Shown here one piece after another: positions 31,718 through 59,377 of a stretch of DNA of 64,000 bases. The notes under the pieces are model-generated. The model made no database searches and was not told where the DNA came from. It saw only the letters and a list, made by a program, of their open reading frames with translations. Source of the stretch: Candidatus Sumerlaeota bacterium. Lineage in GTDB: Bacteria; Sumerlaeota; Sumerlaeia; JAFGJS01. The stretch is from positions 105,483 through 169,482 of the forward strand of contig JAFGJS010000054.1 in assembly GCA_016928995.1 (NCBI GenBank). Reading direction: 5' to 3'. The position numbers and the translations under genes were made by a program. Within the stretch, counting starts at the first letter, position 1; the number at the start of each line of letters is the position of its first letter.

Positions 31718-32057
31718 CATCGCACCTCCAAAGCCGGAAATAATATCGTTGGCGCTCATTGAGCGCGTGGTTTGCAGTTAATCAATACGTGGAGAAACGG
31801 ACCGCGGCATCAGCACTGCTGCCGTTGTAAATGCAAACGGCCTATCGCCGCTGCGGCCGGTGCGGCGATTCGTCATCCTGCTGTTGAGTTGTTCAATGCT
31901 GCGCTATAGGTTCGCGCCCAGGCAACGGGCAAAGAAGCCGGTTGAAACCTGCTTGTCCATCTTGACTCAACCAGCCCATGTAAGTTTGCCGCAGATCGAA
32001 AAAATTATCAACAGTTGTTTCATTCTATCGTTGAGGGGCAAACGCTGATCACGTCCG
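31718..32057. other. Intergenic region between ppk2 and the macroglobulin gene
   Basis: 340 bases without a gene. A hairpin (ATCGCCGC at 31844-31851 with GCGGCGAT at 31862-31869) lies near the middle; on the minus strand it follows ppk2 and precedes the macroglobulin gene, so it may end the former transcript, although no T-run follows. I see no clear promoter. Confidence 0.4.
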
Positions 32058-38626: not shown

Positions 38627-39362
38627 TTTGTTTCTCCTTGGTATGATTTGTTCAAGCAAACAACATGTTGGCGTACTGCGAAATGACATAACCGCAGTAA
38701 TGTGCCGATTCATTGCCGTGCTTACCAGAAACCATATTTACTGATTCAATGGCGCCTCAATGACAGGATCGACAATCTGCTCCATAAACATTGGCGGCTG
38801 TTGAATGCCTCCTTTCTTCTTGCCATCGAGTTGGATTGGTATCGGAGTGTGATCAATGCAATCCATTGCATAACATGTCACGATGCTGGACTGAATGTAT
38901 GTCGCGCCGGGGGTTGGCGTTCATCTGGTAGAATCTCATCCCTTTTCCACGGGCACACACTTTTTGAGCAAAGCGTCAAAAATAATGCAATTGTCTGGTT
39001 TGTTTATTTATTTGTATTTTCTGATGAGCACGAGAGGGTTGCACGATATCGAGGTTTGCCCGCATTCCTGCTTGTATTGGGTATTTTCCGTGTTCATTGG
39101 GGAGAAGAAACCTGCATTGCAGTGGATCATAATACGAGCAGTTTGGCTTATCGTTGCGCATATGGCGACGGCTAATGGCTGATCTGCGGCGCGATAATCA
39201 CTTGCCTCACTGGCGTTGCATGGCGTAATCTGAGGGCAGCCTGGATTTCTTTCGTCTAACTTCTAATTGTGTTCATCGTTATTGTAGTAAGAACTTTTTT
39301 TCGCATACGTTGTCAGTGGTATAATATTGGCGCTGCATCCCAATCTATGGAGGACTCGCACC
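38627..39362. other. Gene-poor, AT-richer region before the giant-protein locus
   Basis: 736 bases between the GH30 gene and the first giant-protein gene. Open frames here do not look like genes: their composition is random-like and they have no ribosome binding sites. A perfect palindrome, ATGCAAT-CC-ATTGCAT, lies at 38856-38871 inside a looser GTGA...TCAC frame and could be an operator for the GH30 gene, 230 bases away. Confidence 0.45.
39320..39325 (+). promoter_or_regulatory. Candidate -10 element for the giant-protein locus
   Basis: A perfect TATAAT about 40 bases before the GTG start at 39363. The -35 position (39297-39302) is a T-rich TTTTTC, so the promoter would be weak there. GGAGG at 39349-39353 is the ribosome binding site. 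Confidence 0.4.
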
Positions 39363-42300
39363 GTGTCGCTCAGAGCATCTATTCTCGCATTGATCGCATT
39401 GCTGGCGGCAATGCCGCGATCGCCGTTGGCTCAGGCGGCTGATCGCACGCCATCGGCGGACGCCGAACGGGTCGTGTTTGTGCCTTATGAGAAGGCGTCC
39501 GGTCCGGAATGGGGCCTGGATCAGTCGGTATTGATCCCTTATGCGGAGTTTTTGAAGTTGAAGAACGCGGGCGCGGATCCGGCGGCCGCCGCGGATTTTC
39601 ATCCTGCCGCCGCCATTGCCCAGGCGACGCTGAAGGGGCGAGTGGAAGGGGATGTCGCGGTTTTTGACGCGGAGTATGTGATCGAGGTGATGGCGCGCCA
39701 GGATGATTTGCTGAAGCTGCGCTTGCCGTTCGAAAATGTTTCGGTGGAGAGCGTCCAGGTCGAGGGACCGCAGGCGCTGCTGTCGCCTTTCACGAAGACA
39801 TCGGGCTTTCAGCTGGAGCTGTTGGGGCCGGAGCGGCGGACGTTGCGGATACGGATGGCGGCGGCGATCCATCAGCAGGGCGCGGCGCAGATCCTGGATT
39901 TTCAATTGCCGCGAGCGGCCGCGGCTTCGATGGAGCTCATCGTGGATGAGGATGTGGCGCTGGAGAAGATTCCGGACGGCCTGGCCACGGCGATGATAGC
40001 GCCGGCGGAAGAGGGGAAGTTTAAAATCACCGCGTCGCTGGGCTCGCAAGGGCATGTGCGGCTGGGATACCGTCCGCGTGTGTTGAAAACCGGCGCGGCG
40101 GCGCAGAAGAGGATGGCGGTGGATCAGCAGTATCAGCTGTCCGTTTCGCGGCAGGGCGCGAGGGCCGGCGTGAAGCTGCATGTCGAGCTGCTTTCCGGCG
40201 AGATCGATTCGTTTCAGCTCACGCTGCCGGAAGGCGCGCGGTTGCTGAGCGTTGCCGGGGATTATGTCAAGGACTGGAAGGCGTTGTCCGAGCCGGGAGC
40301 GGTTGAGGTGGCTTTGATCGAAAGCATGTCCGAGCCGTTTGAGGTCGCATTGGATGTTCAGTATGTGGGCGCGGCGGACGACGGCCGGCTGAATGTGCTT
40401 GAGCTGCGTTTGCCCGAGGCGCTGAGAGAGTCGGGGACTATCATCGTGACTCCGGATCCTGAGGTTTCGGTTTGGCCGGAGCAATCGGCGGGGCTGGATG
40501 AGGTTGCGCCGCCGGCTTCGTCCGGGGCGATGGCTCGCGCGTATCAGTTTTCGCAGCCGGGCTGGACGCTGGAGCTGACGCGCCGCCCGAAGGATGCGCG
40601 CGTGCAGTCTTCTTCGATCGTGTTATATGAAGCGACGGAGGATTGGATTCGTTTAAAGTCGCAGCACCGGCTGGCGATTTTTTCGCGCAGTATTTTCGGT
40701 GTGAGTTTTGAAGTTCCGGAGGGCTTTCAATTGCGCGAGGCGGGGCCGCCGGAGCTGGTGGCCGGTTTCCGGCAGGAGGGCCGCTTGATCGAGCTGACCT
40801 TTAACCGGGAACAGAGCGATGCCTGCGAAGTGCGCTTGAGCTTGCAGCGTCCGCGCGAGGCCGGCGAGGCGGCGTTGCAGTTGCAGCCGATTCGCGTGCA
40901 GGGAGCGGAGGAGGACACCGGCGGACTGGCCTTGGCCGCGCCGTTGGCGCTGCGCGTGGCTGAAGTGGAATCGAGCGGGCTGCATGGGGCGGATGTGCGC
41001 ACGTTGCAGTCGCGCATCGCGCCGTTGCTTTCGCCGGATTTGACGCCGGCGCTGGGGTATCAGTTTTTTCAACCGGAATTCGAGGCGACGATATCCATCG
41101 AGCGTCAGCGCACGCGGATCAGCTGCGAGACTTCGATTTTGACCTCGATCATGCCGAATCTGCTGAAGGTGCACGCGACGCTGAATTACAACATCGAGTT
41201 TTCGGCGACGGATGAATTGCATCTTCGTGTTCCGGCGAGCATCGGCGAGGACGTAGTGATCTCCGGCGCGGACATCAAGGAGCGCACGCCAATGAAGGCG
41301 CCGGATGATCGCGCTGTTCCGGGCGTGTTGACGATGTGGACGGTGAAGTTGCAGCGCCGCGTGATCGGCCCGTACCGTTTGCATGTGACTTTTGACGTTC
41401 CGCTGAAGGAGGCGGAGCAAGGCAAGCCGATGATTGTCGTGGCGCCAGTGGTCAGCGCGGCGGACGTGGTTCGCGAGACGGGCTATGCCGGCGTTTCGCG
41501 CGGCGAGAATCTGGAGGTGCGCATCGCGAAAAAAGCGGATGCGCTGGAGCTGCGGGACGTGAAGGAACTGCCGGGCGATTTGGCGAGCGCTTCGCTGGGC
41601 TTTCGATATTTTGATCCGAAGGATTTTCAGCTGGAGTTGGAATTGATCCGGCATGAGCTGGAGAGCGTGCTGGGGGCGCTGGTGCGCAGGATGCATATCG
41701 ACACAGTGTTGACGAATCAGCGCGAGGCCGTGCATGAGGCGGTCTTTGAGGTGCAGAATAACAGCAAACAATACCTGGAGCTGGATCTGCCCGTTGGAAT
41801 GAAGATCTGGTCGGCGTTCGTGCGGGGCGCGCCGGTGCGGGCCACCAAGCGTCAGGAGGACGGGGCGTATTTAATCGCGCTGCCCAAATCGCCTTCGATG
41901 GACGAGGCTTTTCGCGTGCGGCTGATCCTGCGCGAGACGCTGCCGGGCGGCGCCATGGGCATATTCGGCAAACTGAAGTTTGATCCGCCGCAGCTAATAC
42001 AAGGGACGATCCCTGTCTTGCGAGTGACGTGGAAGCTGTATCTTCCGCCGGATTATCATTATGTGAAGTTTCGCGGCGGAATGCGGCATGAGACGGGCGG
42101 GAGTTCGCCGTGGATCGAGCCGGCGATGGAGAAGCTGCTGAATGATCTTCCGGCCGGCCTGGCCGGGGGCATCGCGCAACCGGCGCTGAGGCCGAATCAG
42201 GCGCGAGTGGGAGTGGCGTATAATTTGCAGGAGACGAACGCGGAGCGGGAGGCGCGGGTGCAGGGAACCGCGCTGGAAATTCCGATCGTGCGCGAGGGGC

Positions 42301-42740
42301 TGCAATTTCAATTCAGCAAGCTGAGCGGAACCGGCGACATCCAGGTTGCGTTCTGGAAGCGCAAGCCGCTGTTGCTGTTGCAGGGGGCGGTGGGTCTGGC
42401 GTTGCTGGTTGGATTGCTCTGGTGGATGCTGCGGGGCGGCGGAAGATTGCGGGATTGCTTGCTCGCCGCCGTGGTCTTGTTTATCGCCGCCAGTCTGATG
42501 GATGGATTGCTGGGGCGTTTGTTCGCCACAGCGTTCGGCGGTTCCGCCGTAGCGGTGATCGCTGGCGCGTTCATCGAAGTCCAGCGCCGCGCGAAAATGG
42601 CGAAGAAGGATGATGGTTTGCCGCCTTCATCTTCGCCACCGCCTCCGCCAAGCTCGAGTCAAGCGGATCTGGCTGACGGACCGGATGGAGCGGAGAGCAT
42701 TGAAGGAGCGGATGATCCCATAACTTCAAACGACGACTGA
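39363..42740 (+). CDS. Giant exported membrane protein, module A
   Basis: A 1125-aa protein of a family I do not recognise. The GTG at 39363, 9 bases after GGAGG, opens a signal peptide (RASILALIALLAAMPRSPLAQA). A long region rich in predicted beta strands (about 37-980) starts with VVFVPYEKASGP and SVLIPYAEFLKLKNAG. Late landmarks are LPPDYHYVKFRGGM (about 894-907) and LQFQFSKLSGTGDIQVAFWKR (about 980-1000). Then come three membrane helices (about 1002-1075) and a Pro/Ser/Asp tail. The same landmarks recur twice in the next gene, so I call this module A of three. Between the last two landmarks A has only a short linker. The next gene starts 10 bases after the stop, so they form an operon. 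Likely faces the periplasm; function unknown. Confidence 0.85.
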   Translation: MSLRASILALIALLAAMPRSPLAQAADRTPSADAERVVFVPYEKASGPEWGLDQSVLIPYAEFLKLKNAGADPAAAADFHPAAAIAQATLKGRVEGDVAVFDAEYVIEVMARQDDLLKLRLPFENVSVESVQVEGPQALLSPFTKTSGFQLELLGPERRTLRIRMAAAIHQQGAAQILDFQLPRAAAASMELIVDEDVALEKIPDGLATAMIAPAEEGKFKITASLGSQGHVRLGYRPRVLKTGAAAQKRMAVDQQYQLSVSRQGARAGVKLHVELLSGEIDSFQLTLPEGARLLSVAGDYVKDWKALSEPGAVEVALIESMSEPFEVALDVQYVGAADDGRLNVLELRLPEALRESGTIIVTPDPEVSVWPEQSAGLDEVAPPASSGAMARAYQFSQPGWTLELTRRPKDARVQSSSIVLYEATEDWIRLKSQHRLAIFSRSIFGVSFEVPEGFQLREAGPPELVAGFRQEGRLIELTFNREQSDACEVRLSLQRPREAGEAALQLQPIRVQGAEEDTGGLALAAPLALRVAEVESSGLHGADVRTLQSRIAPLLSPDLTPALGYQFFQPEFEATISIERQRTRISCETSILTSIMPNLLKVHATLNYNIEFSATDELHLRVPASIGEDVVISGADIKERTPMKAPDDRAVPGVLTMWTVKLQRRVIGPYRLHVTFDVPLKEAEQGKPMIVVAPVVSAADVVRETGYAGVSRGENLEVRIAKKADALELRDVKELPGDLASASLGFRYFDPKDFQLELELIRHELESVLGALVRRMHIDTVLTNQREAVHEAVFEVQNNSKQYLELDLPVGMKIWSAFVRGAPVRATKRQEDGAYLIALPKSPSMDEAFRVRLILRETLPGGAMGIFGKLKFDPPQLIQGTIPVLRVTWKLYLPPDYHYVKFRGGMRHETGGSSPWIEPAMEKLLNDLPAGLAGGIAQPALRPNQARVGVAYNLQETNAEREARVQGTALEIPIVREGLQFQFSKLSGTGDIQVAFWKRKPLLLLQGAVGLALLVGLLWWMLRGGGRLRDCLLAAVVLFIAASLMDGLLGRLFATAFGGSAVAVIAGAFIEVQRRAKMAKKDDGLPPSSSPPPPPSSSQADLADGPDGAESIEGADDPITSNDD

Positions 42741-42750
42741 GGATTGCGCC

Positions 42751-45700
42751 ATGAAGCTTCGAATACAGAGCATGTTCGTTTTTTTCATCGCTGGCGCAAT
42801 CGGGTCGGCGGCGCCGGCGTTGGCGGCCGCCTCAACGGATGTTGCGCCGGTTGAGGTTTTCTATATTCCGCAGGAGGATCTGGCGCGCGGACCGGGGTAT
42901 GCGAGCGAGGGTTTGTATCTGCCGTTGTCCGAGCTGCTGGAGCTGGCGGCGCACGCTCAGGGCGCTTCGGAGAAGCGCGAGACCCTGAGCGGCGTCTGCT
43001 GCCGGTCGCTGAATTTGTCCGGAACGTTGAAGGAGGGGCTGGCCCTGGAGGGCGAGCTGTCGTTCGTGGCGGCGGGCGATGGCTGGTCGGCGGTTTTGGT
43101 CGATGACGGGGGGATTCCCTGGCTTTCGCAGGCATCGCCGGAGACGGCGCCGGCGTTTTTGTCTCGCGTACGCGGAAAGACTTTTCTTTTTGCGCGCGGA
43201 CCGTCCGAGGGTGTGGTTCGGCTGAAGGCGTTTGTTCCGGCGCGGGGCGATGGCGTTGTTCTCCAGGCGTCGCTGGGGCGGATTTTTGCTCCGTGCCGCG
43301 TGACGCTGGATCACGACGAGAGCATCGCGTTTGATACAGCGTCGGCGCCAGCTGATGCGTCGCCGGCGCAGCTGCGTCTTTGGCCTGCGCAGGGGGCGCC
43401 TGTCGAGCTGCGATACCGCATGAAGGCCGGATTTCAGGCGCCGGCCGCTTTGCGCGTCGAGCATGCGCGCGAGATCAAGGCTGCCGGCGGGGGATTGCAG
43501 CTCGAGGATGAGCTGACTCTGGCAGGAAGGTTTTCGCCCGGAGAGCCGATTCAATTTGCGCTGCCGGAACAGATGCGGCTGTTGCGCGCGACGACCTCGG
43601 ATGCGGCGGAGGTTCGTATCGATGACGCCGCGTTGACGGTCGTTCCACTGCAACATTGTGAAACGTTGAAGATTTGGGCGTCGTTGGCCGTTGATGCGGT
43701 TGAGGGACGGGCGGTGTTGAAGCCGTGGAAGTTCGATGCGCAGGCGGTTTATTCTAGCGTGCGGCTGATCGCTTCGCCGCAGTATGCGCCTGTGCCGGTG
43801 GATTGGCCGGAGGAGCTGTTTCCCGCGGCTGGCGGCGCCGCGGACCGTCATTACGAGTGCTGGGGGGCGTTGCCTGAATTGAGCGTCGCGCTGGCGGACG
43901 CCTCGCCGCCGCAGCCTTTGCGTGTTTCGGCGCTGCTGACGCTGGCGGAGAATGCGGCGACGGTTGAGTATTATGTGGAGCTCACGGATCCCCATCAGCG
44001 CGAGATTCGATTTCAACTGCCGGTGGATTGGGTTTTGACGGAGCTGACGGCGACGCGCGGCAAACAAATCGCGCCCGTGGCCGTTCAGCAGGAAGACGAC
44101 CGCTGGTGGCGAGTGACCGGCGCTCCGTCGCAGAATCCGGGAGCGGTTCGTTTTTCTTTGCGGCGGATGGAGCAATGGGGCCGGGCGGATGAGGCGACGA
44201 CGCTGGAACTGCCGCTGGCGCGGTTCGTTGGATTGCGTCCGTCGCTTTATGAGCTGCGGATCGCCTGGCCGGAAGGCCTGGAAGCGCGCGTGGCGCAGTT
44301 GTCGTCGATGGTTGTGACGCCGGTGGGCGGAAGTTTTGTCTTGCCGTCGCCGGGCGACCGTGAGGCTCAGCTGGCATTGCAGGCGGAGGGGGATGCGCCG
44401 TCCGGCTCGCTGGCCGTGCGGATGCGTGAGGCGGAGCAACGGGTGACGGTGGTGACGGTTCTTTCCGTGCAGGAGGATCGGGCCAACATCCGGGCCTTGC
44501 TGTCTTATGAGACGCGGTTTGCGCCCAGCCGCGCGTTCCGTTTTAGCTTGCCTGCGGGCACGGGCTCGAACGTGCGCATTGAGGGCGAGGGAATCCGCGA
44601 GACATCGCTGCAGGAGACAGCGGAAGGCGACGTCTGGACCGTGATTGCGCAGCGCGATGTGCTGGGCGAGTTTCAATTGACGTTGGAGTGGAGTCTGGAC
44701 GCCAAGCCAGGCGCGAAGGCGATTCAGGCGCCGGAGATCCGGCTGCCGGACATTGCGATGCAACAGGGTTTCATTGTGCTGGAAGGCTCCCAGACCTTGC
44801 TGCTGAATACGGAAAGCAAGAATCTGGCTGAGACGGAGCTGTCCGAGCTGCCGCCGTTGCCCTGGCCCCGAGAGAACCGGCTGCTGGCGGTGTATCGCTA
44901 TATTGAACCGCCGTTTTTGTTGAGCGTGCAGGCGGAGAAACTGGAGCCGGAGCCGGCGCTGGAAGGCTTGGCGGATAAGGCGGAACTGGTGACGACGGTG
45001 GCCGCGAACGGTGAGCGTTTAACGCGGGCGCGGTACGATGTGAAGCCGACGAACGACCGTCAGTTCTTGCCGGTGACGCTGCCTGCGGGAGCCGTGCTGT
45101 GGTCGGCGCTGGTCAATGGCGAGGGGATCAAACCGGCGCGGCAGACAATCGGCGCTGAGACGGTTTTGCTCGCGCCGCTGCCCGCGCGCGGAGAATCGTC
45201 CGCCGGTTCGGACAAGAAGAACGTGCAGCTCGAGTTGTTGTATCTGGAACAGGGCAAGCCGCTGTGGGGATGGGACCGGCTGAAGCTGACCGGACCGGAG
45301 CTGCCGATTCCAATCAATCGCACGGTGTGGAAGTTGAATCTTCCTCCGGGCTTCGAATACATGACTTTCGGCGGGAGTTTGACGGACACGATCCCGACGC
45401 ATCCGCCGATCATCACGTTTTTGCGCACGTCGGATTATCCGCCGCGCTTGGTGTTTCTCAATGCATCTACGTTTGCGATCATCTTTCTCACGTTCGTGAC
45501 GGTGATGCTGGGGATGACCGTTTATTTCGGCGTGAAGCAGCAGCGGGAAAAACGGGAGGCGCAGGCGCTATCTGGAGAGAGCCGCGTGAAAGAGGCGCCG
45601 AAAAAAAATACAGTGTCGCGATTGGTCGAATTGCTTGTCGTTTTGCTGATCATCGCCATACTGGCGGCGATCGCCGTGCCGAATTTTCTGGAGTTTCAGA

Positions 45701-48700
45701 CACGGGCGAAAGTGTCGCGCGCGAAAGCGGATCTGCGTACAATGGCGACGGCGCTTGAGGCGTATTTCGTGGATAATCGAGCTTATCCGGTTGATCCGGA
45801 CATTCTGTGGCAAGGTTCGGTTCGTTATATCACCGGGCCGGCTAACGATCCGTACACCTATGGCGAATATTACTCGAGCGGTGGCGAGGAGGCTCAATTC
45901 CGGTATTTGCAGGGGATGGAGGCTTACCGCGCCGCGCAGCGGAATGGAGCTGTGGATTTATCCGGAGTCGATCCGAATCAGTTCTGGTTGATGTATAGCG
46001 TGGGGCCGGATCAGCGCGACGACAAGGCGCAAATTTTATACGATCCCACGAATGGCACGGAGAGCACGGGCGATGTCGTGCGATTTGCGCAAGGGGCGGC
46101 CGAGTATGATTATGATCGTAAGCCGCGGGTGATAAACCGACTTGCGGGTCGTATGGATGAAAGTCGGCAAGTGTCGGTCGCCGGGAAGGCGATTCCGCAA
46201 GCGCCTGCGAGGCAACTCGCTTGGGATGAAGAATTAGCAAAAGAGCCGCAATCGATCTCAGTCGATGGCGACATGCCGGCGGAGCTCAACGGTGACTCTG
46301 GAGTTTCTTTCGGTCCGAAGAGAGAGCGCCAGGTCGCAAACCAGCCGGCGTCATTAGAGGAATTAATGCCGGCGGAGCAATACGCCAAGTATCAGGCTGG
46401 ACGTCAGGCCGGCTTGCTTTCGCTGGGGATTGAAATTCCGGAAGGCGGCGTGCAGCGGGCGTTTGAGGCTTTGGGCGGCGAGGCGCGCATGGAAGCCAAT
46501 TTGATGAGCGAGGGTTTTTTCAGGCGGCTGGTTTTTATTTTCTGGATCGGCGCGATGCTGGCCATGATCGCGGTGTGGCGCTTGAAGCGCGAGTCGTACC
46601 GGCTGGTGTTTGTGTCGGCGTCGGCGGCGGCGCTGTTGATTCCGCTCTTTGTTCCCGGTCCGTACATCGTGCTGTTTAATGCGGCGTTTCAGGGGATTCT
46701 GTGTTCGCTGGTAGCGCCGCTGTTTACGGTCGTGGTCAAGCGCATGGGATTGAATCACCGTCAGGCGCCGCTGGTCGTGTTGATCGGGGCGTGCCTGCTT
46801 GCGGCTTCAGTTCCGGCGCGGTCTGCCGCTGAGGAAAAAGCGGAAGCCGTGCGGATTCTGGCGCCGTACGGAGAAGATTGGAGTCCGTTGAGCGCAGGCG
46901 ATCCGCAGGCGTTCATCAGCCGCGAGCATTTCACTCGATTGTGGGACGCGGCGCAAACGGATCGCGCGGCGGCTGAGGCGGCGCCACCGGTGTTGGCTGA
47001 GGCGCGGTTGACCGGGGCGCTCGATGCGGATGCGCCGGTGATTCGGGGCGAGCTGTTGATCCGGGCGATGAATCCGGAGGATGCGCCGACGAGCTGCGCG
47101 CTGGCGATGGAGGGGCTTGTGTTGCAGCGCGCCGTTGCGACGCCGCCCGGCGCGACGCTGGAAGCGGCGGGAGATCAGCTGCGTTTGCAGATGGACGCTG
47201 GATGGAGCGGTTCGATCACCGCGGCGTTCGAACTGCCATGCGAACGGCTCGGTTTTACGGGCAGCCTGCGTTTGTCCTTGCCGGACCTCGCTTGCGGGGA
47301 ATGGCGCGTGGAATTTCCTTTCGCGGACATGGAGCTGAGCGGATCGTCCGCGCCAAGTTGCGTGGTGGATCGCAGCGGAGAGTGCGTCGCGGCGACGGGC
47401 GCGATCCGGGCCGGGACGCTCGAACTGTCCTGGACCGGGATGCAGGCGGAGCGCGACGCGGCGGCGGAAGCGGCTTCGCAGCCGGAGTATCAGGCGAACG
47501 TCTTCACTCGTCTGCTCTGGCCGGATTTGTCTTTTTCCCGCTGGCATGCTTCGATCCATCTCGAGGCTTCGGATCAGCGCGATTTGCTGCCTGAGGAGCT
47601 CAGGTTCAAACTCGATCCGGGGCTGCGGATTTTTTCCGTGCAGGGGAATCGTTTGCTTTCCACGGTCGTTGATGAAAATGAAATGATCGTCCGCTTGCGG
47701 CCATCTCAAGCGGCGACGCTTGAAGTTGAGGGCTTTTCCACGGCGCAGACTGTCGCGACGGACGGGATTCAACAATGGGTCGTGCCGGGGTTGCGTCCGG
47801 CGGATGGGATTCGGACGCACACGTTGCTGAAATTCGCGATCGCGGGCGGCATTGAGATCCTTTCGTCCAAGGCTGAAGGCATGACGCGGACTCCGGTCGA
47901 TGTTCCGCTGCCCGGCTATGCGGCGCAGCAGTATGAGACGGAGTCGGCGGATTGGCGCGTTGTTGTTGATATGCGCCGGCGCAAGGCGGAACTGCGCGCG
48001 GATGTTCATGAACTGATCGTGGCCGGCGGTGGTTTTTTGCGCTTGGCCGCGTCGATTGGATTGAATCCGCAACAGGACGCCGTGCATCAGTGCCGGCTTC
48101 AGGTTCCGGAGGGCTTGAACGTGCAGTCGCTGAGCGGTGATTCGTTGAGCGATTGGTCGCAGGCGGACGGCGAGGTGCATTTGACGTTTGATCCGCCGTT
48201 GCAGGATAAGCTGGAACTGGTTTTAACGGCGCTGGCGGAGCTGGATGCGGAAGAAGGCCGATTTGCCGTGCAGCCATTGTCCGTGGCGGACGCGCGAGAC
48301 GACAGCCGCACGATGGCGATCATTGTGTCGCCGGATCAGAAGCTGACGGAATTGGATTTGGCGGGTGCGACGCCGCGCCGGTCGAATGAGCTGGATCAAC
48401 GGCTGCGGGAATTGATGTTGAGGGATGCATCGCTGACGTTTTACGCTGCGTCGCCGCTGCAGTGTTATGCGCTGACCGGAGGCGAGCCGCTGACGTTTCG
48501 GCTGGAGCCGGTTCCGATCCGCATGCGGACGGCGATTTTCAATCATGTGACGATTGAGGACGGCGTTCAGCGGTTGGAGGCCGTGATCCGCGCGACGCCG
48601 TTGAAGGGGCGGATTCAGGAGGTCGCGGTGTTGCTGGAATCGCCGGAGGCGCAGGCGGCGGCTTCGCGCTTGCAGACGCCGGATGGCGTGCGGCAAGTGA

Positions 48701-50289
48701 ATTTCAGTCCGGCGGGAGACGGTCTGCTGAAGGTCGCGATGGAGTTGATGTCGCCGGTGCAGGGGCGGCCGGTGGAGCTTCGCTTGAAATTGGATCAGGC
48801 GCAGAACACGGAAAACGGCGATCCGGTGGTTCCTTCGGTATTCCTGCCGTTTGAGCCGGAGGGAGCGCGGGTGTTTCTGCATTTGAGCCGCGAGTTCGAG
48901 GGCGAGTTGTCCGGTTTGGAGCGAGGGCGGGCGCAAGCGGCGGATCCTTCCGAAGTGAATTGGCCGGAGACGGGATTTCGCGTTTTGCCTTCGGATCAGG
49001 CGTTTGAATTGTCTCCCCAGCCGGGGGGCGCTCCTTCGTTTCAGGTTGTTCGTCATGAGCGGGCGGACGCCTTGCGGGCGATCGTGGAGGTGATGCGTCA
49101 GCGCACGATCATCACGAAGGATGGCTTTGAGCGAAGCGAGCTGGATATTGCGCTGCAGAATCAATCGAGCCAGTTTTTGAAAATCGGCTTTCCGTATTCT
49201 CGGGAGCAGCTATCGATCTATGAGATTCGCGTGGCTGGGCGCGCGGTGCGGGCGATTTTTGATCAGGAGAACGGCCGGGATGTTTTGCTGGTGCCGCTGA
49301 TTCGCACCGGGATGCTGGATCCGGAGTTGAATGTCCGCATCGCTTACACAGTGTCCGATCGGCCGGAATTTTCCGGCAAGGGCAAGCGTGTGCAACAGCT
49401 GCCGGAGATTCTGGACGGCGTGCCTGTGGCGCAATCGTCGCTGGTGTTGATGCTGCCGCCGAATTTTAAGTATTCGAGCTTCAAGGGGACGCTGAATGAG
49501 GTTGAGCTGGTGGACCTGGAGTTGGATGAGGCTGTGCGGCAATCGAAGCGCCTGGAGCAGATGACCGAGGAGGCGTTGCTGTTGAAGGGAACGATGCAAC
49601 GGCGGGCCTTGAAGAAGGTCGTCGCGATGCAGTCGAAGGTGGAGTCAAACGTTCAGCAGACTCAGCAGATCGTTTCGGCGCAATTTAAGCAGGAGAGCCT
49701 GCAGCGTAGAAACGAGGGCAAGGACAAGGAGCGCTGGAGGGACCGTTTGCAACAGGAGCGTGAAGGCAACCTGGAGATCATGGCGTCCAACGCGGCGGTG
49801 AGCTACAGCAACATCAGCCAGTTGAATGATTTTATTTTACAGCAGGATCAGCAGGCCGGGCAAGCGGGCGCGATGCAAGCGGCGCAAGAGGCGCAGGCGG
49901 AACCGGAGCCAGAGGCGGCTCAGCCGGCGGTTGAGGGGAACATCGTATTTCCTCGCGCGGGCGAGGTGTTTGCGTTCCGGCAGTTGCAGGGTACGGGCAT
50001 GATCCAATTTAAATTCAAGTCGCTCGAAGCGCGCGAGATTCGCAATGACGTGTTGCTAGGGGCTTTCGTCGTGGCGGCGATCGCGCTGTTGACATTCGCC
50101 AGCCGGTTTATTTTTCACTCGTTCCGCCGTGTGGCGGTCATTTTTCTGGTTGTGTGCGTTGCGGCTGTGCTGACGGGAACCGCGCTGGATCTGAGCATCC
50201 CTGGGGCCGTCATTGCGTTGATCGCGCTGATGTTCAAGGGCGGCGGTTTGCGGCGTCATGCGGAGGATGGAGTTGCGCCGGGGCGTTGA
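42751..50289 (+). CDS. Giant membrane protein with two A-type modules and an internal pilin-like domain
   Basis: A 2512-aa protein not known to me. Order: signal peptide (1-26); module B from VEVFYIPQEDLARG (about 33) to LPPGFEYMTFGGSL (about 863-876); a membrane helix (about 905-928); a type IV pilin-like domain (about 956-1117) with RLVELLVVLLIIAILAAIAV and AVPNFLEFQTRAK, where Glu960 is the pilin Glu5; a linker; the end of module B (IEIPEGGVQRAFEALGGEAR, about 1225); a membrane bundle (about 1258-1355) ending in a signal-like helix (VVLIGACLLAASVPARSA); module C from AVRILAPYGEDW (1365) to LPPNFKYSSFKGTL; a coiled coil (about 2260-2350); FAFRQLQGTGMIQFKFKSLE (about 2408); and final helices. 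The prepilin Gly-1/Phe+1 are Val955/Ser956, so cleavage is not expected. GAGG precedes the ATG by 9 bases. Confidence 0.85.
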   Translation: MKLRIQSMFVFFIAGAIGSAAPALAAASTDVAPVEVFYIPQEDLARGPGYASEGLYLPLSELLELAAHAQGASEKRETLSGVCCRSLNLSGTLKEGLALEGELSFVAAGDGWSAVLVDDGGIPWLSQASPETAPAFLSRVRGKTFLFARGPSEGVVRLKAFVPARGDGVVLQASLGRIFAPCRVTLDHDESIAFDTASAPADASPAQLRLWPAQGAPVELRYRMKAGFQAPAALRVEHAREIKAAGGGLQLEDELTLAGRFSPGEPIQFALPEQMRLLRATTSDAAEVRIDDAALTVVPLQHCETLKIWASLAVDAVEGRAVLKPWKFDAQAVYSSVRLIASPQYAPVPVDWPEELFPAAGGAADRHYECWGALPELSVALADASPPQPLRVSALLTLAENAATVEYYVELTDPHQREIRFQLPVDWVLTELTATRGKQIAPVAVQQEDDRWWRVTGAPSQNPGAVRFSLRRMEQWGRADEATTLELPLARFVGLRPSLYELRIAWPEGLEARVAQLSSMVVTPVGGSFVLPSPGDREAQLALQAEGDAPSGSLAVRMREAEQRVTVVTVLSVQEDRANIRALLSYETRFAPSRAFRFSLPAGTGSNVRIEGEGIRETSLQETAEGDVWTVIAQRDVLGEFQLTLEWSLDAKPGAKAIQAPEIRLPDIAMQQGFIVLEGSQTLLLNTESKNLAETELSELPPLPWPRENRLLAVYRYIEPPFLLSVQAEKLEPEPALEGLADKAELVTTVAANGERLTRARYDVKPTNDRQFLPVTLPAGAVLWSALVNGEGIKPARQTIGAETVLLAPLPARGESSAGSDKKNVQLELLYLEQGKPLWGWDRLKLTGPELPIPINRTVWKLNLPPGFEYMTFGGSLTDTIPTHPPIITFLRTSDYPPRLVFLNASTFAIIFLTFVTVMLGMTVYFGVKQQREKREAQALSGESRVKEAPKKNTVSRLVELLVVLLIIAILAAIAVPNFLEFQTRAKVSRAKADLRTMATALEAYFVDNRAYPVDPDILWQGSVRYITGPANDPYTYGEYYSSGGEEAQFRYLQGMEAYRAAQRNGAVDLSGVDPNQFWLMYSVGPDQRDDKAQILYDPTNGTESTGDVVRFAQGAAEYDYDRKPRVINRLAGRMDESRQVSVAGKAIPQAPARQLAWDEELAKEPQSISVDGDMPAELNGDSGVSFGPKRERQVANQPASLEELMPAEQYAKYQAGRQAGLLSLGIEIPEGGVQRAFEALGGEARMEANLMSEGFFRRLVFIFWIGAMLAMIAVWRLKRESYRLVFVSASAAALLIPLFVPGPYIVLFNAAFQGILCSLVAPLFTVVVKRMGLNHRQAPLVVLIGACLLAASVPARSAAEEKAEAVRILAPYGEDWSPLSAGDPQAFISREHFTRLWDAAQTDRAAAEAAPPVLAEARLTGALDADAPVIRGELLIRAMNPEDAPTSCALAMEGLVLQRAVATPPGATLEAAGDQLRLQMDAGWSGSITAAFELPCERLGFTGSLRLSLPDLACGEWRVEFPFADMELSGSSAPSCVVDRSGECVAATGAIRAGTLELSWTGMQAERDAAAEAASQPEYQANVFTRLLWPDLSFSRWHASIHLEASDQRDLLPEELRFKLDPGLRIFSVQGNRLLSTVVDENEMIVRLRPSQAATLEVEGFSTAQTVATDGIQQWVVPGLRPADGIRTHTLLKFAIAGGIEILSSKAEGMTRTPVDVPLPGYAAQQYETESADWRVVVDMRRRKAELRADVHELIVAGGGFLRLAASIGLNPQQDAVHQCRLQVPEGLNVQSLSGDSLSDWSQADGEVHLTFDPPLQDKLELVLTALAELDAEEGRFAVQPLSVADARDDSRTMAIIVSPDQKLTELDLAGATPRRSNELDQRLRELMLRDASLTFYAASPLQCYALTGGEPLTFRLEPVPIRMRTAIFNHVTIEDGVQRLEAVIRATPLKGRIQEVAVLLESPEAQAAASRLQTPDGVRQVNFSPAGDGLLKVAMELMSPVQGRPVELRLKLDQAQNTENGDPVVPSVFLPFEPEGARVFLHLSREFEGELSGLERGRAQAADPSEVNWPETGFRVLPSDQAFELSPQPGGAPSFQVVRHERADALRAIVEVMRQRTIITKDGFERSELDIALQNQSSQFLKIGFPYSREQLSIYEIRVAGRAVRAIFDQENGRDVLLVPLIRTGMLDPELNVRIAYTVSDRPEFSGKGKRVQQLPEILDGVPVAQSSLVLMLPPNFKYSSFKGTLNEVELVDLELDEAVRQSKRLEQMTEEALLLKGTMQRRALKKVVAMQSKVESNVQQTQQIVSAQFKQESLQRRNEGKDKERWRDRLQQEREGNLEIMASNAAVSYSNISQLNDFILQQDQQAGQAGAMQAAQEAQAEPEPEAAQPAVEGNIVFPRAGEVFAFRQLQGTGMIQFKFKSLEAREIRNDVLLGAFVVAAIALLTFASRFIFHSFRRVAVIFLVVCVAAVLTGTALDLSIPGAVIALIALMFKGGGLRRHAEDGVAPGR
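45616..46101 (+). other. Type IV pilin-like domain inside the giant protein
   Basis: In-frame segment of residues 956-1117. It carries the N-terminal hydrophobic pilin helix with the conserved glutamate (position 5), the proline and NFLEFQTRAK that follow, the RAKADLRTMATALEAYFVDN segment and the C-terminal YDPTNGTESTGDVVRF typical of pseudopilins from PVC-like bacteria. The residues at the cleavage site are Val and Ser rather than Gly and Phe. The fold probably remains in the membrane as a tether. Confidence 0.85.
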
Positions 50290-50383: not shown

Positions 50384-50478
50384 TAGAACGCTTCTCAAAA
50401 GCTTTTGCCGAATGAAATGGATTCACAGCCGAAGGCGGCTGTGCCACATTTTTCAGAAAGCGCCATTTCTTTCGAGAG
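50384..50478 (+). repeat. MITE-like repeat, copy 1
   Basis: About 95 bases with ends TAGAACGCTTCTCAAAAG and CTTTCGAGAG, imperfect inverted repeats of each other, around a palindromic core CACAGCCGAAGGCGGCTGTG. It fills most of the gap between the giant gene and the spermidine-synthase-like gene. A second copy is at 60732-60828 (opposite orientation) and a partial one at 53800-53823. Confidence 0.75.
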
Positions 50479-50515
50479 GCGCTCTAAGGGCGCGCGAACG
50501 CAAGGGGAGGATGCC

Positions 50516-53500
50516 ATGAAGCGGTATTTTGTTTTGCTGTTTACGTTGTTTGTCTTGTCGGGTTTCGCCGGACTGACCTATGAGGTGGTCTGGTCGAAAT
50601 ATTTGGCGTTGTTCCTGGGGGCGAGCGGCTATGCGCAGCTGTTGGTGCTTTCCACGTTCATGGGGGGGCTGGCGCTGGGTTCGGTGTGGCTGGGGGCGCG
50701 TTCGGACCGCATGCGGCGGCCGGTTGTGTTTTATGCCTGGCTGGAGTTGGGCGTGGGAATTTGGGGCTTTTTGTTTCCGCTGCTGTTTCCGTGGGCGCGG
50801 GATGCGTTCATGGCGGCGGCGATCCGGATGGAGCTGAGCCCCGGTTTGATTTTCAGCCTGAAGCTGTTGATCTGCATGGCGTTCGTGCTGGTTCCGACGA
50901 CGCTGATGGGAGGAACGCTGCCGGTGATGACGCGCGCGGCGGCGCCGTGTCTGGCGGCGGTGGGGCGCAATGTCTCGAGTTTGTATTACATCAATAGTTT
51001 CGGCGCGGCTTTAGGATGCGTGGGCGCGGGGTTTTTCCTGATTCCGCGGCTGGGTCTGGCGGGCGCGAATATGACGGCGGCGACGCTGAATGTGGCCGTG
51101 GCGGGGCTTGCGTTATGGGCGGAGCGGGGCATTCGGCGGCATTCGGGGGAGCTTGAGGATGCGCATGGCGGGCGCGAGGTGATCGTCGATGAGGCGCACG
51201 CGAATGAGGCGCTGGAGCCGGAGCGCAACCGGCAGATCGCGGTGTGGGCCGCGGGGATTTCCGGGGCTTTGGCGATGATGTACGAGGTGATCTGGATCCG
51301 GCTGCTGACGTTGACGATTGGGTCTTCCACGTATTCTTTTTCGTTGATGTTGTCGGCGTTTATCACGGGAATCACGCTGGGGAGTTGGATTCTCTCGAAG
51401 AAGAAGACGCCGGGAGGTTATTTTTTAATTCTGGGCGCGAGCCAGCTGGCGGCCGGCGTCGTGGTGTTGCTGTCTTTGCCGGTGTATCCGCTGCTGCCTT
51501 ATTTCTTTTTTCTTTGGGTTTCGATGTTGAATCACGAGCCGTATGCTTTTCCTCTATATCAGGTGTTGAAGTTCATTTTTTGTTTTCTGGTGATGGTGCC
51601 TCCGGCGGTGTTTTTCGGGATTTCGCTGCCGGCGGCGAGCCATGTGGCGGCGGACAAGATGAAAGTGTTGGGCCGTCAGGTGGGGGGAGTTTTTGCGGTG
51701 AATACGCTGGGCACGATCATCGGGACGTTGACGGCCGGTTTGGTCTGCATGCCGTTGTTGGGCTTGCAGGGATCGATCATGTTGTGCGTGCTGGTGAGCA
51801 TGCTGTTGGCGATTGGGGTGCTTTGGAACTGCTCGAAATCGCCGTGGGCGGCGCGGCTGCGATTCGCCAGCCTGCCGATTTTGTTGTTTGGATTAGCCTG
51901 GTTTTATCTTCTCTATCCGTCGTGGAATCATGATATGCTGAATCGGGGATATTATTACGTGATCCGCAAGCAGGGGAATGTCCAGCGCACGAGCATGCGC
52001 GATCCTGAGCATTGGAAGATCACGCCGCCCCTGGCGGCCGAGGCGATTTCGTCGAGAAAGGCGGAGCTGGAATCGGAAAAATCGAGCCAGGACGGGATGC
52101 GGCGGATGCTCTACCAGAAGGATGGAGTGAATGCGACGGTGGCGGTTTTTCAGTCGCCGTATGATCCGAAGTCGGTTTTTCTTAAAGTGAATGGCAAGAC
52201 GGACGCTTCCTCGCAGGGCGATATCGCCACGCAGTTGTTGGTGAGCCATTTGCCGTTGATCGTGAAGGGCGGAGCGGAGGATGTGCTGGTGATCGGGCTG
52301 GGGAGCGGGATGTCGATGGGCGCGGCGCTGCAGCACAAGGTGAAGCGCGTGGACGCTGTGGAGATCTTGCCGGAGGTGGTGGAGGCGGCGGGACTGTGCT
52401 TTTCGGAGCATAACAACAACGCGGTGAATCCGGATGGATCGTGCGATGATTCGCGGGCGCATCTTTATCTTGATGATGCGAAGACGTTCATGCAGACGAC
52501 GCGGCGGCAGTACGATGTGATTGTGAGCGAGCCGACGAATCCCTGGATCGCGGGCGTGGCGGGGCTGTTCAGCAAGGAATTTTTCGAGACCGTGGATTCG
52601 AGACTGAAGGAAGATGGCCTGCTGGCGCAGTGGCTGCAATCGTATTATTTGGAAGACGAGGCGATGTGGATGATCATTGACACGCTGCAGCAGCATTTTC
52701 CTTATGTCGTGGCGTGGAATTCGCAGGGCGCGGATATCATCCTGCTTTCGAGCCGCAAGCCGATTACGCCGGACTTTGCGGCGATGGAACAGGCGATGGC
52801 GCAGCCGGGAGTGCGGAAGGATCTGGAGCGGATCAACGTCAGGAGTCTATGGACGTTGCTGACGATGCAGTTGGGTGAGCTGCCGTTGCCGGCCGAGCCG
52901 ATCCCGGATAGCCGGATTCATTCGGATATCCGGCCGAAGCTGGATTATATCGCTCCGCGGGGGATGTTTCTGCAGATCCGGGCGCCGTTGCTGGAGACGA
53001 TGGATCAGCGTTTGGCCGCGCATCCGAGCGAGCAATTATGGCTGAATCGTTATGCGCCGCCGGAGCCGATTTCCGCGGATGAGTTCTACCAGGTTTATAC
53101 GCAGAATTATCATATGGCGATGTTGAGGCCGGAAGTGCGGCGCTCGTGGTGCAAGCTCTGGGTTGAGGCGTATCCGGATGATGAGCGGGCGCAGGTTTCG
53201 TGGATCATGGAGTGCAAGGAGGGTTTGGCGGAGCAGCAACGGATGTTTGAGGAGCGGCTGATTCCAGGCTCCGGGGAGCTGTATACCTGGGAGTCTTACG
53301 CCTTGATTTTAGGGATGCGCTATGTGCGTTCGCAGCAGATCGGACTGTATGAGCGGCATCCCGAACTTGAGGCGGCGCTGCGGCGATGCATCGAGCTTGG
53401 ATCGCGCAATTCGTGGCGATATTACCGGACGCTGGCGGAGCTGCTGACCGGCGATGGCCGGTTCGAGGAAGGGATCGCAACGGCGCTGGAGGGCTTGAAT

Positions 53501-53722
53501 GCGCTGCCGGAATCGAGCGCCGGCGAACCAGAACTGACGTTGTATAGGCGCAATTTGCTGCTGATCCAATTGGCCGATTGCGCACTGGCCGCAGGCGACT
53601 TGCGTCAGGCTGAGCAGGCGATGGAGCGGATTGATTTTGATCGTGTGCCGGAGTGGGATGCGCGGCAGTTGCGCGATCGTTTGTCGCGCCTTCAGCGCGA
53701 AGGCTCCAGCCGGGAGGAATAG
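50516..53722 (+). CDS. Spermidine-synthase-like membrane protein (fused transporter-like, methyltransferase-fold and TPR-like parts)
   Basis: A 1068-aa protein. The ATG at 50516 has GGGGAGG 5 bases upstream; the open frame before it overlaps a repeat. The N-terminal half (to about 470) has about 12-14 membrane helices in two related halves, each starting with a GLTYEVVWSKYLALFLG-like segment (second: MMYEVIWIRLLTLTIG). The middle is a spermidine-synthase fold with the SAM-type loop VLVIGLGSGMSMG (about 591-603), VDAVEILPEVVEAA, LDDAKTFMQ and IVSEPTNPWIAGVAGLFS. The C-terminal 250 residues are helical and TPR-like (MECKEGLAEQQRMFEE, RRNLLLIQLADCALAAGDL). Fused membrane-spermidine-synthase proteins are widespread but of uncertain substrate. 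It follows the giant protein on the same strand, separated by a repeat. Confidence 0.88.
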   Translation: MKRYFVLLFTLFVLSGFAGLTYEVVWSKYLALFLGASGYAQLLVLSTFMGGLALGSVWLGARSDRMRRPVVFYAWLELGVGIWGFLFPLLFPWARDAFMAAAIRMELSPGLIFSLKLLICMAFVLVPTTLMGGTLPVMTRAAAPCLAAVGRNVSSLYYINSFGAALGCVGAGFFLIPRLGLAGANMTAATLNVAVAGLALWAERGIRRHSGELEDAHGGREVIVDEAHANEALEPERNRQIAVWAAGISGALAMMYEVIWIRLLTLTIGSSTYSFSLMLSAFITGITLGSWILSKKKTPGGYFLILGASQLAAGVVVLLSLPVYPLLPYFFFLWVSMLNHEPYAFPLYQVLKFIFCFLVMVPPAVFFGISLPAASHVAADKMKVLGRQVGGVFAVNTLGTIIGTLTAGLVCMPLLGLQGSIMLCVLVSMLLAIGVLWNCSKSPWAARLRFASLPILLFGLAWFYLLYPSWNHDMLNRGYYYVIRKQGNVQRTSMRDPEHWKITPPLAAEAISSRKAELESEKSSQDGMRRMLYQKDGVNATVAVFQSPYDPKSVFLKVNGKTDASSQGDIATQLLVSHLPLIVKGGAEDVLVIGLGSGMSMGAALQHKVKRVDAVEILPEVVEAAGLCFSEHNNNAVNPDGSCDDSRAHLYLDDAKTFMQTTRRQYDVIVSEPTNPWIAGVAGLFSKEFFETVDSRLKEDGLLAQWLQSYYLEDEAMWMIIDTLQQHFPYVVAWNSQGADIILLSSRKPITPDFAAMEQAMAQPGVRKDLERINVRSLWTLLTMQLGELPLPAEPIPDSRIHSDIRPKLDYIAPRGMFLQIRAPLLETMDQRLAAHPSEQLWLNRYAPPEPISADEFYQVYTQNYHMAMLRPEVRRSWCKLWVEAYPDDERAQVSWIMECKEGLAEQQRMFEERLIPGSGELYTWESYALILGMRYVRSQQIGLYERHPELEAALRRCIELGSRNSWRYYRTLAELLTGDGRFEEGIATALEGLNALPESSAGEPELTLYRRNLLLIQLADCALAAGDLRQAEQAMERIDFDRVPEWDARQLRDRLSRLQREGSSREE

Positions 53723-57551: not shown

Positions 57552-57933
57552 GCGTTAATACAAGAGGCGTGCCATTATTACGATTTGGGATGAATATTGT
57601 TAAGTAGTGTTATTTGAGTTGTATGCGGGCATAAGCGCAGCGGTTGATATGAATTTATACCCTAGACTTTGAGGTCATTAATGCTGCAAGCGTATAAAAA
57701 GTTTCACGTAAAAGTCATATTTTGTGAATTCGATTTCGTTGTTTTTGAGCGTAAATTGATCGGATTGATCGCAAAAGGCGATGTTCTGGAAGGGTTTTTT
57801 GCTTGCGTTCAGGTCTAAGGCTGGGTTTACATGCAAGTGGGCTGTTTTTCGTTTTGGACTTTGGCGAATGGGGAGTGCGGAGTCAAATTCCGGGTTTTTC
57901 AGGAATAACATCCGGGGAAGGATTGATGCGATT

Positions 57934-58668
57934 ATGCCTGCACATTTGCATAAGCGACATGATTATCCGGGGAAGCTGATTATTGTGGAGGGGATCGACG
58001 GTTCGGGCAAGAGCACGCAGCTGGATTTGCTGCATACCTGGCTGAATGCGGAGGGGTATTCGGTTTTTTTCACGGAGTGGAATAGCTCGGCGTTGATCAA
58101 GGATACGACGAAGTTGGGGAAAAAGAAGAAGATCCTGACGCCGACGACGTTCAGCTTGCTGCACTGCATTGATTTCGCGGACCGGTTTTATAATGCGATC
58201 ATTCCGCCGTTGAAAGCGGGGATGATCGTCCTATGTGATCGTTATATATACACCGCTTTCGCGCGCGATGCGGCTCGTGGGTGCGACAAGGATTGGCTGC
58301 GAAGTCTCTACAGCTACGCGGTGCGGCCGGATATGGCGATGCTTTTTCGGGTTGATCTGGCGACGTCGCTTAAGCGGATCAAGGCCGGGCGCGCTGAGAT
58401 CAAGTATCATGAGGCGGGGATGGATCTGAATCTTTCGCCGGACATCGAGGAGAGCTTCCGGTTGTTTCAGGGGCGGGTGGTGGTGAATTACGACGCGATG
58501 ATCGAGGAATTCGGTTTGAGCGCGATCGACGGGGCGCAGGATATTGATTCGCAGCAGAAAGAGTTTCGCAAGGCGATCAAGAAAATCCTGAAGGGTTATA
58601 AGCAGAAGCCGCTGCTGACGCAGAATCTGCCGCCGCTCCCGGAGGAGGTGGTGTATGCCGGCCAATAA
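57934..58668 (+). CDS. Thymidylate-kinase-like P-loop kinase, first of a tandem pair
   Basis: A 244-aa nucleotide-kinase fold. Walker A is intact (VEGIDGSGKSTQ, Lys26). The DRY block reads CDRYIYTAFARDAARG, and the C-terminal helices follow. It lacks the TREPGGT segment that follows the P-loop in true dTMP kinases (here TEWNSSALIK), so the substrate may be different. The start at 57934 was chosen because the ATG leads into the domain and GGAAGG lies 12 bases upstream; the open frame back to 57781 has no homologous look. The 3' end overlaps the next gene by 14 bases. Confidence 0.85.
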   Translation: MPAHLHKRHDYPGKLIIVEGIDGSGKSTQLDLLHTWLNAEGYSVFFTEWNSSALIKDTTKLGKKKKILTPTTFSLLHCIDFADRFYNAIIPPLKAGMIVLCDRYIYTAFARDAARGCDKDWLRSLYSYAVRPDMAMLFRVDLATSLKRIKAGRAEIKYHEAGMDLNLSPDIEESFRLFQGRVVVNYDAMIEEFGLSAIDGAQDIDSQQKEFRKAIKKILKGYKQKPLLTQNLPPLPEEVVYAGQ

Positions 58669-59377
58669 ATCGGATAAGAAAAAAACAAAATTGCACGACA
58701 AGTTTTACGGCACGCCGCTGCCGGGGAGCGTGGATGATGAGCTGCCGGGCAAGCTGATCGTGCTGGAGGGCACCGATGGTTCGGGGCGCAGCACACAGAT
58801 GAGCCGCTTGACGCGCTGGCTGGAGGTGGAGGGGTACGGCGTGGTGAACACGGGCTGGACGCAGTCGCCGCTGATGCAGGAGAGCATCGACCGGGCCAAG
58901 GAGGGGCATACGCTGAACAACACGACGTTCAGCCTGTTTTATCTGGCGGATTTCGCGGACCGGCTGGAGTCGACGATCATCCCGGCGCTGAAGGCGGGAT
59001 TCATCGTGCTGGCGGACCGTTATATCTACACGGCGTATGCGCGCAATGTGTTGCGCGGGCTGGATAAAAACTGGACGCGGAAGATTTACAGCTTCGCGAT
59101 CAGGCCCGACCTGGTGTGCTACTTGAAGTGCGACGTAGAGCATTTGATTCCGCGAATGCTGAAGAGCAAGGGGCTGGAGTACTGGGAGGCGGGGATGGAT
59201 CTGGCGCTGGGCGCGGATCTCTACGATTCCTACTGCAAGTACCAGCCGATGCTGTTGAAAGAGTTCGACCGGATGGCGGAGGAGTTCAACTTCAAGGTCG
59301 TGGACGCGAATCGTTCGCCGAACGAGATTTTTCCTGATTTGCAGAAGCACATCCGAAAGCTGCTGGCGGAGGAATAG
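58655..59377 (+). CDS. Thymidylate-kinase-like protein with altered Walker A, second of a tandem pair
   Basis: A 240-aa paralogue of the preceding product, obviously related along its whole length (TTFSLFYLADFADRLESTII, LADRYIYTAYARNVLRG, YWEAGMDLALG). Its P-loop is EGTDGSGRSTQ: the catalytic lysine is replaced by arginine (Arg45). The Walker A lysine is generally essential, so this copy may be inactive or use another residue and may form a heterodimer with the first. GGAGGAGG lies just before the ATG, and the 14-base overlap with the first gene implies coupled translation. Confidence 0.85.
   Translation: MPANKSDKKKTKLHDKFYGTPLPGSVDDELPGKLIVLEGTDGSGRSTQMSRLTRWLEVEGYGVVNTGWTQSPLMQESIDRAKEGHTLNNTTFSLFYLADFADRLESTIIPALKAGFIVLADRYIYTAYARNVLRGLDKNWTRKIYSFAIRPDLVCYLKCDVEHLIPRMLKSKGLEYWEAGMDLALGADLYDSYCKYQPMLLKEFDRMAEEFNFKVVDANRSPNEIFPDLQKHIRKLLAEE

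Follow-up and report, generated by a model that had tools for sequence, protein, structure and literature searches.

Type IV pilins are usually defined by a class III signal peptide (PMC8179133), and modular type IV pilins such as PilB of S. sanguinis carry an N-terminal pilin with a cleavable signal peptide of this class and polymerise (PMC8179133). In an assembled pilus, Glu5 forms a pair with the N-terminal amine of the next subunit up; a filament begins with a tip complex, which is capped by a subunit lacking Glu5 (PMC10191384). The subject here is a gene in a 64,000-nucleotide stretch of a Candidatus Sumerlaeota genome (GCA_016928995.1, contig JAFGJS010000054.1, positions 105,483 to 169,482 of the forward strand; hereafter the window). 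This uninterrupted open reading frame (42751-50289) encodes a membrane protein of 2512 amino acids, the giant, with a pilin-type domain embedded in its interior (residues 956-1117, 45616-46101). Coordinates are those of the window; the giant gene and the paralogue ahead of it, described below, lie on its + strand.

The modular pilin is the nearest described idea: in both cases a pilin module and large non-pilin domains share one chain. The embedded pilin differs in being internal, in having no cleavage site, and in having a periplasmic unit and a transmembrane (TM) helix ahead of it. No description of this arrangement was found in open-licence papers on pilin fusions, DUF1559 or anti-sigma-pilin proteins.

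The embedded pilin domain

Residues 956-1117 (SRLVELLVVLLIIAILAAIAVPNFLEFQTRAK...YDPTNGTESTGD) consist of an alpha-1 helix (956-1008) and a head that runs up to a YDPTNG..GD ending. Among NCBIfam profiles the domain matches PilA (3.2e-13) and GspG (7.2e-11), both under the curated cut-offs; scores of 42.3 against GspG (TIGR01710; cut-off 88.85 bits) and 16.2 against the Pfam family T2SSG (PF08334; cut-off 21 bits) leave it outside curated membership of either. Matches in the PDB are to geopilin (2.3e-12) and GspG (1.5e-7), and identity to the free pilins of its own genome is 42-78%, varying with the stretch aligned. Judged from these comparisons, the pilin homology exceeds chance. The original prediction, made from the DNA letters alone, had proposed a real pilin-type domain with Glu at position 5, and the NCBIfam and PDB matches, together with Glu960 (codon 45628-45630), confirm it. 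What the domain shares with GspG/PilA-type (pseudo)pilins is an alpha-1 with Glu5, hydrophobic over residues 958-976 and with the glutamate invariant in all seven fusions found (see below); it differs from them in its scores under the curated cut-offs and in having no class III signal peptide. The giant's contig (C97) is not among the 39 Pfam N_methyl matches in its own genome, a miss to be expected because the cleavage motif is absent. An AlphaFold2 model of residues 860-1345, built from 4 sequences only, gives a long helix at 954-1008 and little else (mean predicted local distance difference test score, pLDDT, 44.6).

The place of the prepilin cleavage site is taken by Val955/Ser956 (45613-45618), residues already read as uncleavable when the domain was first noticed, and the motif bears this out across the class. 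Each of the 29 free pilins read in the class carries [GA]^FTL[IV]E, whereas [GA]^F occurs in 0/7 fusions (vs 29/29; Fisher p 1.2e-7, uncorrected for kinship and so only indicative). No two fusions share the same pair at -1^+1, the seven being V^S, T^I, G^V, C^G, T^F, L^R and A^T. Under the usual definition the embedded domain is, by its sequence, neither a type IV pilin nor a modular pilin: 955 residues stand ahead of it where a type IV pilin lies at the chain N-terminus; there is no class III signal peptide, with a Gly/Ala leader end before Phe1; and the giant likewise lacks the N-terminal pilin with such a signal, plus extra module, that makes a modular pilin. The domain may still function as one end-subunit of a filament. 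An internal translation start at the GTG at 45613-45615 was judged unlikely, there being no nearby ribosome-binding sequence and no such start common to the relatives. Just ahead of the pilin helix, on the predicted cytoplasmic side (45595-45615 region), a Gly-Cys pair is present in 4/7 fusions (G007, G013, G026 and G005).

Loss of the cleavage site is accompanied by conservation of the rest of the domain. Between families, identity is 60-73% in alpha-1 and 43-54% in the head, the best-conserved stretch of the giant, compared with 16-34% in the preceding helix TM1, 11-27% in the loop after it, 14-27% in the linker that follows the pilin and mostly 30-46% in the remainder. Since alpha-1 and head are conserved while TM1, loop and linker vary, selection appears to act on the pilin itself, beyond its use as a hydrophobic anchor.

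The fusion is a recurrent feature of the class. Searches covered 61 genomes for the pilin plus flanking sequence and the class's 39 genomes for either half of the giant; the beta-rich unit ahead of the pilin (unit 1), the pilin and a second such unit behind it (unit 2) co-occur in the same 7/39 genomes, which belong to 7 different families. In four relatives (G001, G007, G013 and G026) a single reading frame of 2437-2623 amino acids spans all three parts; in G005 and G008 the contigs end and the giant is visible only in part. Four fusion-bearing relatives match public records, and the pilin is contained in three of the four. A breakpoint or stop/start in other assemblies would have spoken for a misassembly, and the search of related genomes suggested with the original prediction instead found intact fusions elsewhere. 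Assembly error is excluded as the source of the fusion; the chance that an assembly or frame artefact joined separate genes is negligible, as the same uninterrupted fusion stands in independent assemblies and nothing was found in favour of an artefact. The seven embedded pilins group together in a tree (ultrafast bootstrap 95; Shimodaira-Hasegawa-like approximate likelihood ratio test, SH-aLRT, only 28), a grouping that fits a single origin.

The host protein and its slot across lineages

The giant begins with a signal peptide (residues 1-26, 42751-42828), marked by a hydropathy peak at 8-26 and small residues ahead of residue 27, and continues with unit 1, a predicted periplasmic beta-saddle array (residues 28-890, 42832-45420). 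TM1 (about residues 905-928, 45463-45534; peak 908-926) would then take the chain from outside to inside, where a short basic loop (929-955, 45535-45615) leads into the pilin domain. Behind the pilin come a periplasmic, unconserved linker (1118-1214, 46102-46392), a juxtamembrane strand (LSLGIEIPEGG..) with TM3-5 (1215-1335, 46393-46755), TM6 (about 1338-1366, 46762-46848), unit 2, again a periplasmic beta-saddle array (about 1366-2420, 46846-50010), and C-terminal TM helices recognised by hydropathy (about 2429-2500, 50035-50250). The hydropathy profile, with the pilin helix at 958-976 and further TM helices from 1260, agrees with the topology first suggested, in which TM1 leads inward and the pilin helix returns the chain to the periplasm.

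Ten bases ahead of the giant gene ends that of an 1137-residue paralogue without a pilin (39327-42740), which also adjoins the giant gene in relatives whose contigs extend far enough. Comparison by hhalign of this upstream protein with residues 25-950 (E 1.7e-49) and with residues 1215-2512, containing unit 2 (E 5.1e-53), and of unit 1 with unit 2 (E 1.4e-17), identifies the giant, at the level of profiles, as a tandem of two copies of one unit and the upstream gene as a third copy. Residues 1215-1345 align with the C-terminal tail of the upstream protein (E 1.4e-10); TM1, pilin and linker have therefore been inserted into unit 1, where its beta-saddle part meets the juxtamembrane strand.

A model of the upstream protein (mean pLDDT 75.1) matches ribophorin I of the oligosaccharyltransferase (Z about 13, root-mean-square deviation (rmsd) about 12 over 300 residues, two domains) and, at three places, N-domains of the M1/LTA4H type (Z about 11-12, rmsd mostly 3-4 over about 150 residues). 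The repeated unit is thus predicted to have the saddle-like beta fold of the M1 aminopeptidase N-domain and ribophorin I, a likeness at Z about 11-14; such a fold by itself implies no function. The host differs from M1 aminopeptidases in being a tandem array with TM helices in which no peptidase domain was found: neither the giant nor the upstream protein has a Pfam peptidase match, and the saddle units have no Pfam or NCBIfam match. Foldseek matches to integrins were set aside, being array-level, with low TM-scores and rmsd of about 20 or more.

TM6 resembles a signal peptide, with small residues ahead of the periplasmic part, and its end looks like a signal-peptidase motif in those fusions that extend this far. 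The helix may be what remains of the signal of the second copy, or may still function as that signal; signal peptidase could then cut the giant in two. The description of the pilin as sealed inside a 2512-residue protein holds insofar as the domain is internal to one open reading frame; it may be overstated insofar as TM6 could allow splitting.

What the original prediction missed is that the host belongs to a tandem-repeat family present in several phyla, where the slot carries pilin-derived sequence too. Among 386 genomes searched with a profile of the unit (A4), 23 from outside the class have the family, encoded by one gene, by two or by a tandem giant. Within the class of G311, which we infer from DUF1559 content and genome size to be planctomycete-like, 113 of 198 sampled genomes carry it; in clear cases a gene for about 1150 amino acids accompanies a giant of about 2700. 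In a tree, the upstream gene of the Sumerlaeota clusters with that of G311/G174 (94/82), and the gene pair may therefore be common to several phyla. In planctomycete-like giants, the position of the pilin is taken by a TM1/TM2 hairpin. Of 40 such slot regions, compared with a profile of alpha-1 from the pilin-like genes of a second phylum (that of G315), 18 contain a pilin-like helix at domain E < 0.05, vs 0/40 reversed sequences, and one genome (G456) has a full DUF1559 domain there (E 1.2e-20). Glu5 is absent from the slot helix in the planctomycete-like giants inspected by eye.

The second phylum has the family in 17/68 genomes, and 14/16 of its family proteins hold in the slot a DUF1559 head fragment, LREG[VI]ERFFITDINNPAAS (13 by pattern and L143 by eye). 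A pilin-like DUF1559 gene then follows the family gene at every locus with a continuing contig (14/14); it has Glu5 in 12 of 13 readable cases and [GA]^F in none. Upstream, about nine loci have an anti-sigma-like gene that includes a pilin-like DUF1559 domain; this gene is preceded, where the contig shows it, by a gene for an extracytoplasmic function (ECF) sigma factor (Sigma70_r2/r4). In L141, L148, L151 and L110 an anti-sigma-like N-terminus is joined through a TM helix to pilin-like DUF1559 beside the ECF sigma gene, and zf-HC2 is matched in L148 and L151, the two tested. Two reading frames (L106:7940-8674 and 8646-10091) match no family and appear spurious. DUF1559/SBP_bac_10 (PF07596) resembles the embedded pilin in its pilin-like helix and head, and occurs both in the slot of this host family and as a neighbouring gene; the Sumerlaeota copy differs in being of the YDPTNG type, like the free pilins of its own phylum, which it most resembles.

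At least three distant lineages (Sumerlaeota, planctomycete-like bacteria and the second phylum) thus carry pilin-derived sequence in one fixed slot. One old insertion with decay and replacement would fit this pattern, as would repeated capture. The use of the slot looks like old reuse of a pilin domain and not an accident.

Possible roles of the embedded pilin

Our preferred reading, held tentatively and at somewhat less than an even chance, is that the embedded domain is a locked, non-polymerising pilin. Occupying one set position in an inner-membrane protein made of repeats, it would link the periplasmic array to a partner pilin. By entering through TM1 and returning through alpha-1, the chain would keep the natural N-in/C-out orientation of a pilin. 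Glu5 would dock on the N-terminus of the last subunit in a pilin stack, and the embedded pilin, which has no free N-terminal amine, could not accept a next subunit. With Glu5 present and the free amine absent, it would be a base anchor or terminator, holding to the beta-saddle array either a short filament or one pilin-like partner. The partner would most simply be the base of a filament, a link that we infer from Glu5 chemistry. In planctomycete-like relatives, where the module has mostly decayed to a TM helix, it would serve as a packing helix at most.

The original prediction offered a permanent tether, or an anchor or initiator of a pseudopilus. The tether or anchor is plausible, and is strengthened by the strict conservation of Glu5 together with loss of the cleavage site. 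An anchor is likelier than an initiator because the embedded pilin has Glu5 but no free N-terminus. GspK-like minor pilins of the tip cap would share with it a position at one end of the stack; they lack Glu5 (PMC10191384) and are cleaved, the reverse of the embedded pilin, which makes initiation unlikely.

Several observations weigh against a base anchor. The scanned neighbours of the giant gene are ordinary, with no gene for pilus assembly found among them; a link with a pilus operon next door was therefore rejected. The Glu5 argument is one of chemistry; the pilin fold appears in no structure model; and conservation of alpha-1 may partly be inheritance from strongly conserved free pilins. 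Planctomycete-like slots have lost Glu5 and mostly the head as well, so filament contact is not general to the family.

A purely structural use is nearly as likely as a base anchor: a domesticated module could provide a return TM helix and a periplasmic domain that packs within the beta-saddle complex, contacting neither filament nor free pilin. The planctomycete-like TM1/TM2 hairpin, its helix often pilin-derived and without Glu5 or head, indicates that the slot works there without a whole pilin; the Sumerlaeota, however, keep Glu5, alpha-1 and head better conserved than the rest of the giant, while TM1, a plain anchor, is poorly conserved. It is also conceivable, if unlikely, that an envelope-sensing complex binds its partner through the pilin domain. 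The Sigma70_r2/r4 and anti-sigma-like TM-DUF1559 genes upstream, and the uncleavable DUF1559 gene downstream, in the second phylum would suit such a role, but no sigma or anti-sigma gene was found near the Sumerlaeota copies examined, and the link in the second phylum consists solely of gene order.

Very unlikely, in our estimate, is release of the pilin after all, with signal peptidase acting at TM6 and a cut near residue 955 made by a different protease or by a relaxed prepilin peptidase. The signal-peptidase-like motif at the end of TM6 would suit this scheme, and the genome does have a prepilin peptidase (PF01478; the sole Peptidase_A24 match, C155:3386-3757), with no match to the A24 N-terminal domain (PF06750) found despite the 39 N_methyl matches. 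The variable residues at the pilin N-terminus, with no common cleavage motif, argue against it. We regard as rather doubtful a more general proposal, in which a beta-saddle family of several phyla uses an unreleasable, Glu5-docking base pilin to connect the envelope with a pilin-like partner and, in a single phylum, to couple that partner to an ECF-sigma/anti-sigma-pilin switch as well.

Neighbouring genes and wider meaning

Elsewhere in the window, 115 bases 3' of the giant gene, lies a gene for an 1105-residue protein (50405-53722) that combines a spermine-synthase-like domain with an N-terminal part of several TM helices and a weak tetratricopeptide-repeat-like tail. Tandem thymidylate-kinase-like genes overlap by a few bases (57781-58668 and 58655-59377), and the minus strand encodes a bacterial alpha-2-macroglobulin (1919 aa; 26000-31759) followed by a 1C-type transglycosylase/transpeptidase penicillin-binding protein (23679-26003).

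Pilins are defined by a cleaved N-terminal signal; here seven families have lost that signal while retaining the residue used in assembly along with the other parts of the domain. Pilins can thus be absorbed into other membrane proteins, and the fusions offer a natural test of the role of Glu5 where there is no free N-terminus. Partner genes, predicted fold and topology likewise give a first handle on an uncharacterised giant family that is common in planctomycete-like bacteria. Should the embedded domain prove to be an unreleasable base pilin, the pilin domain would have acquired a new use, that of a base terminator defined in chemical terms and the opposite of the tip cap already known.

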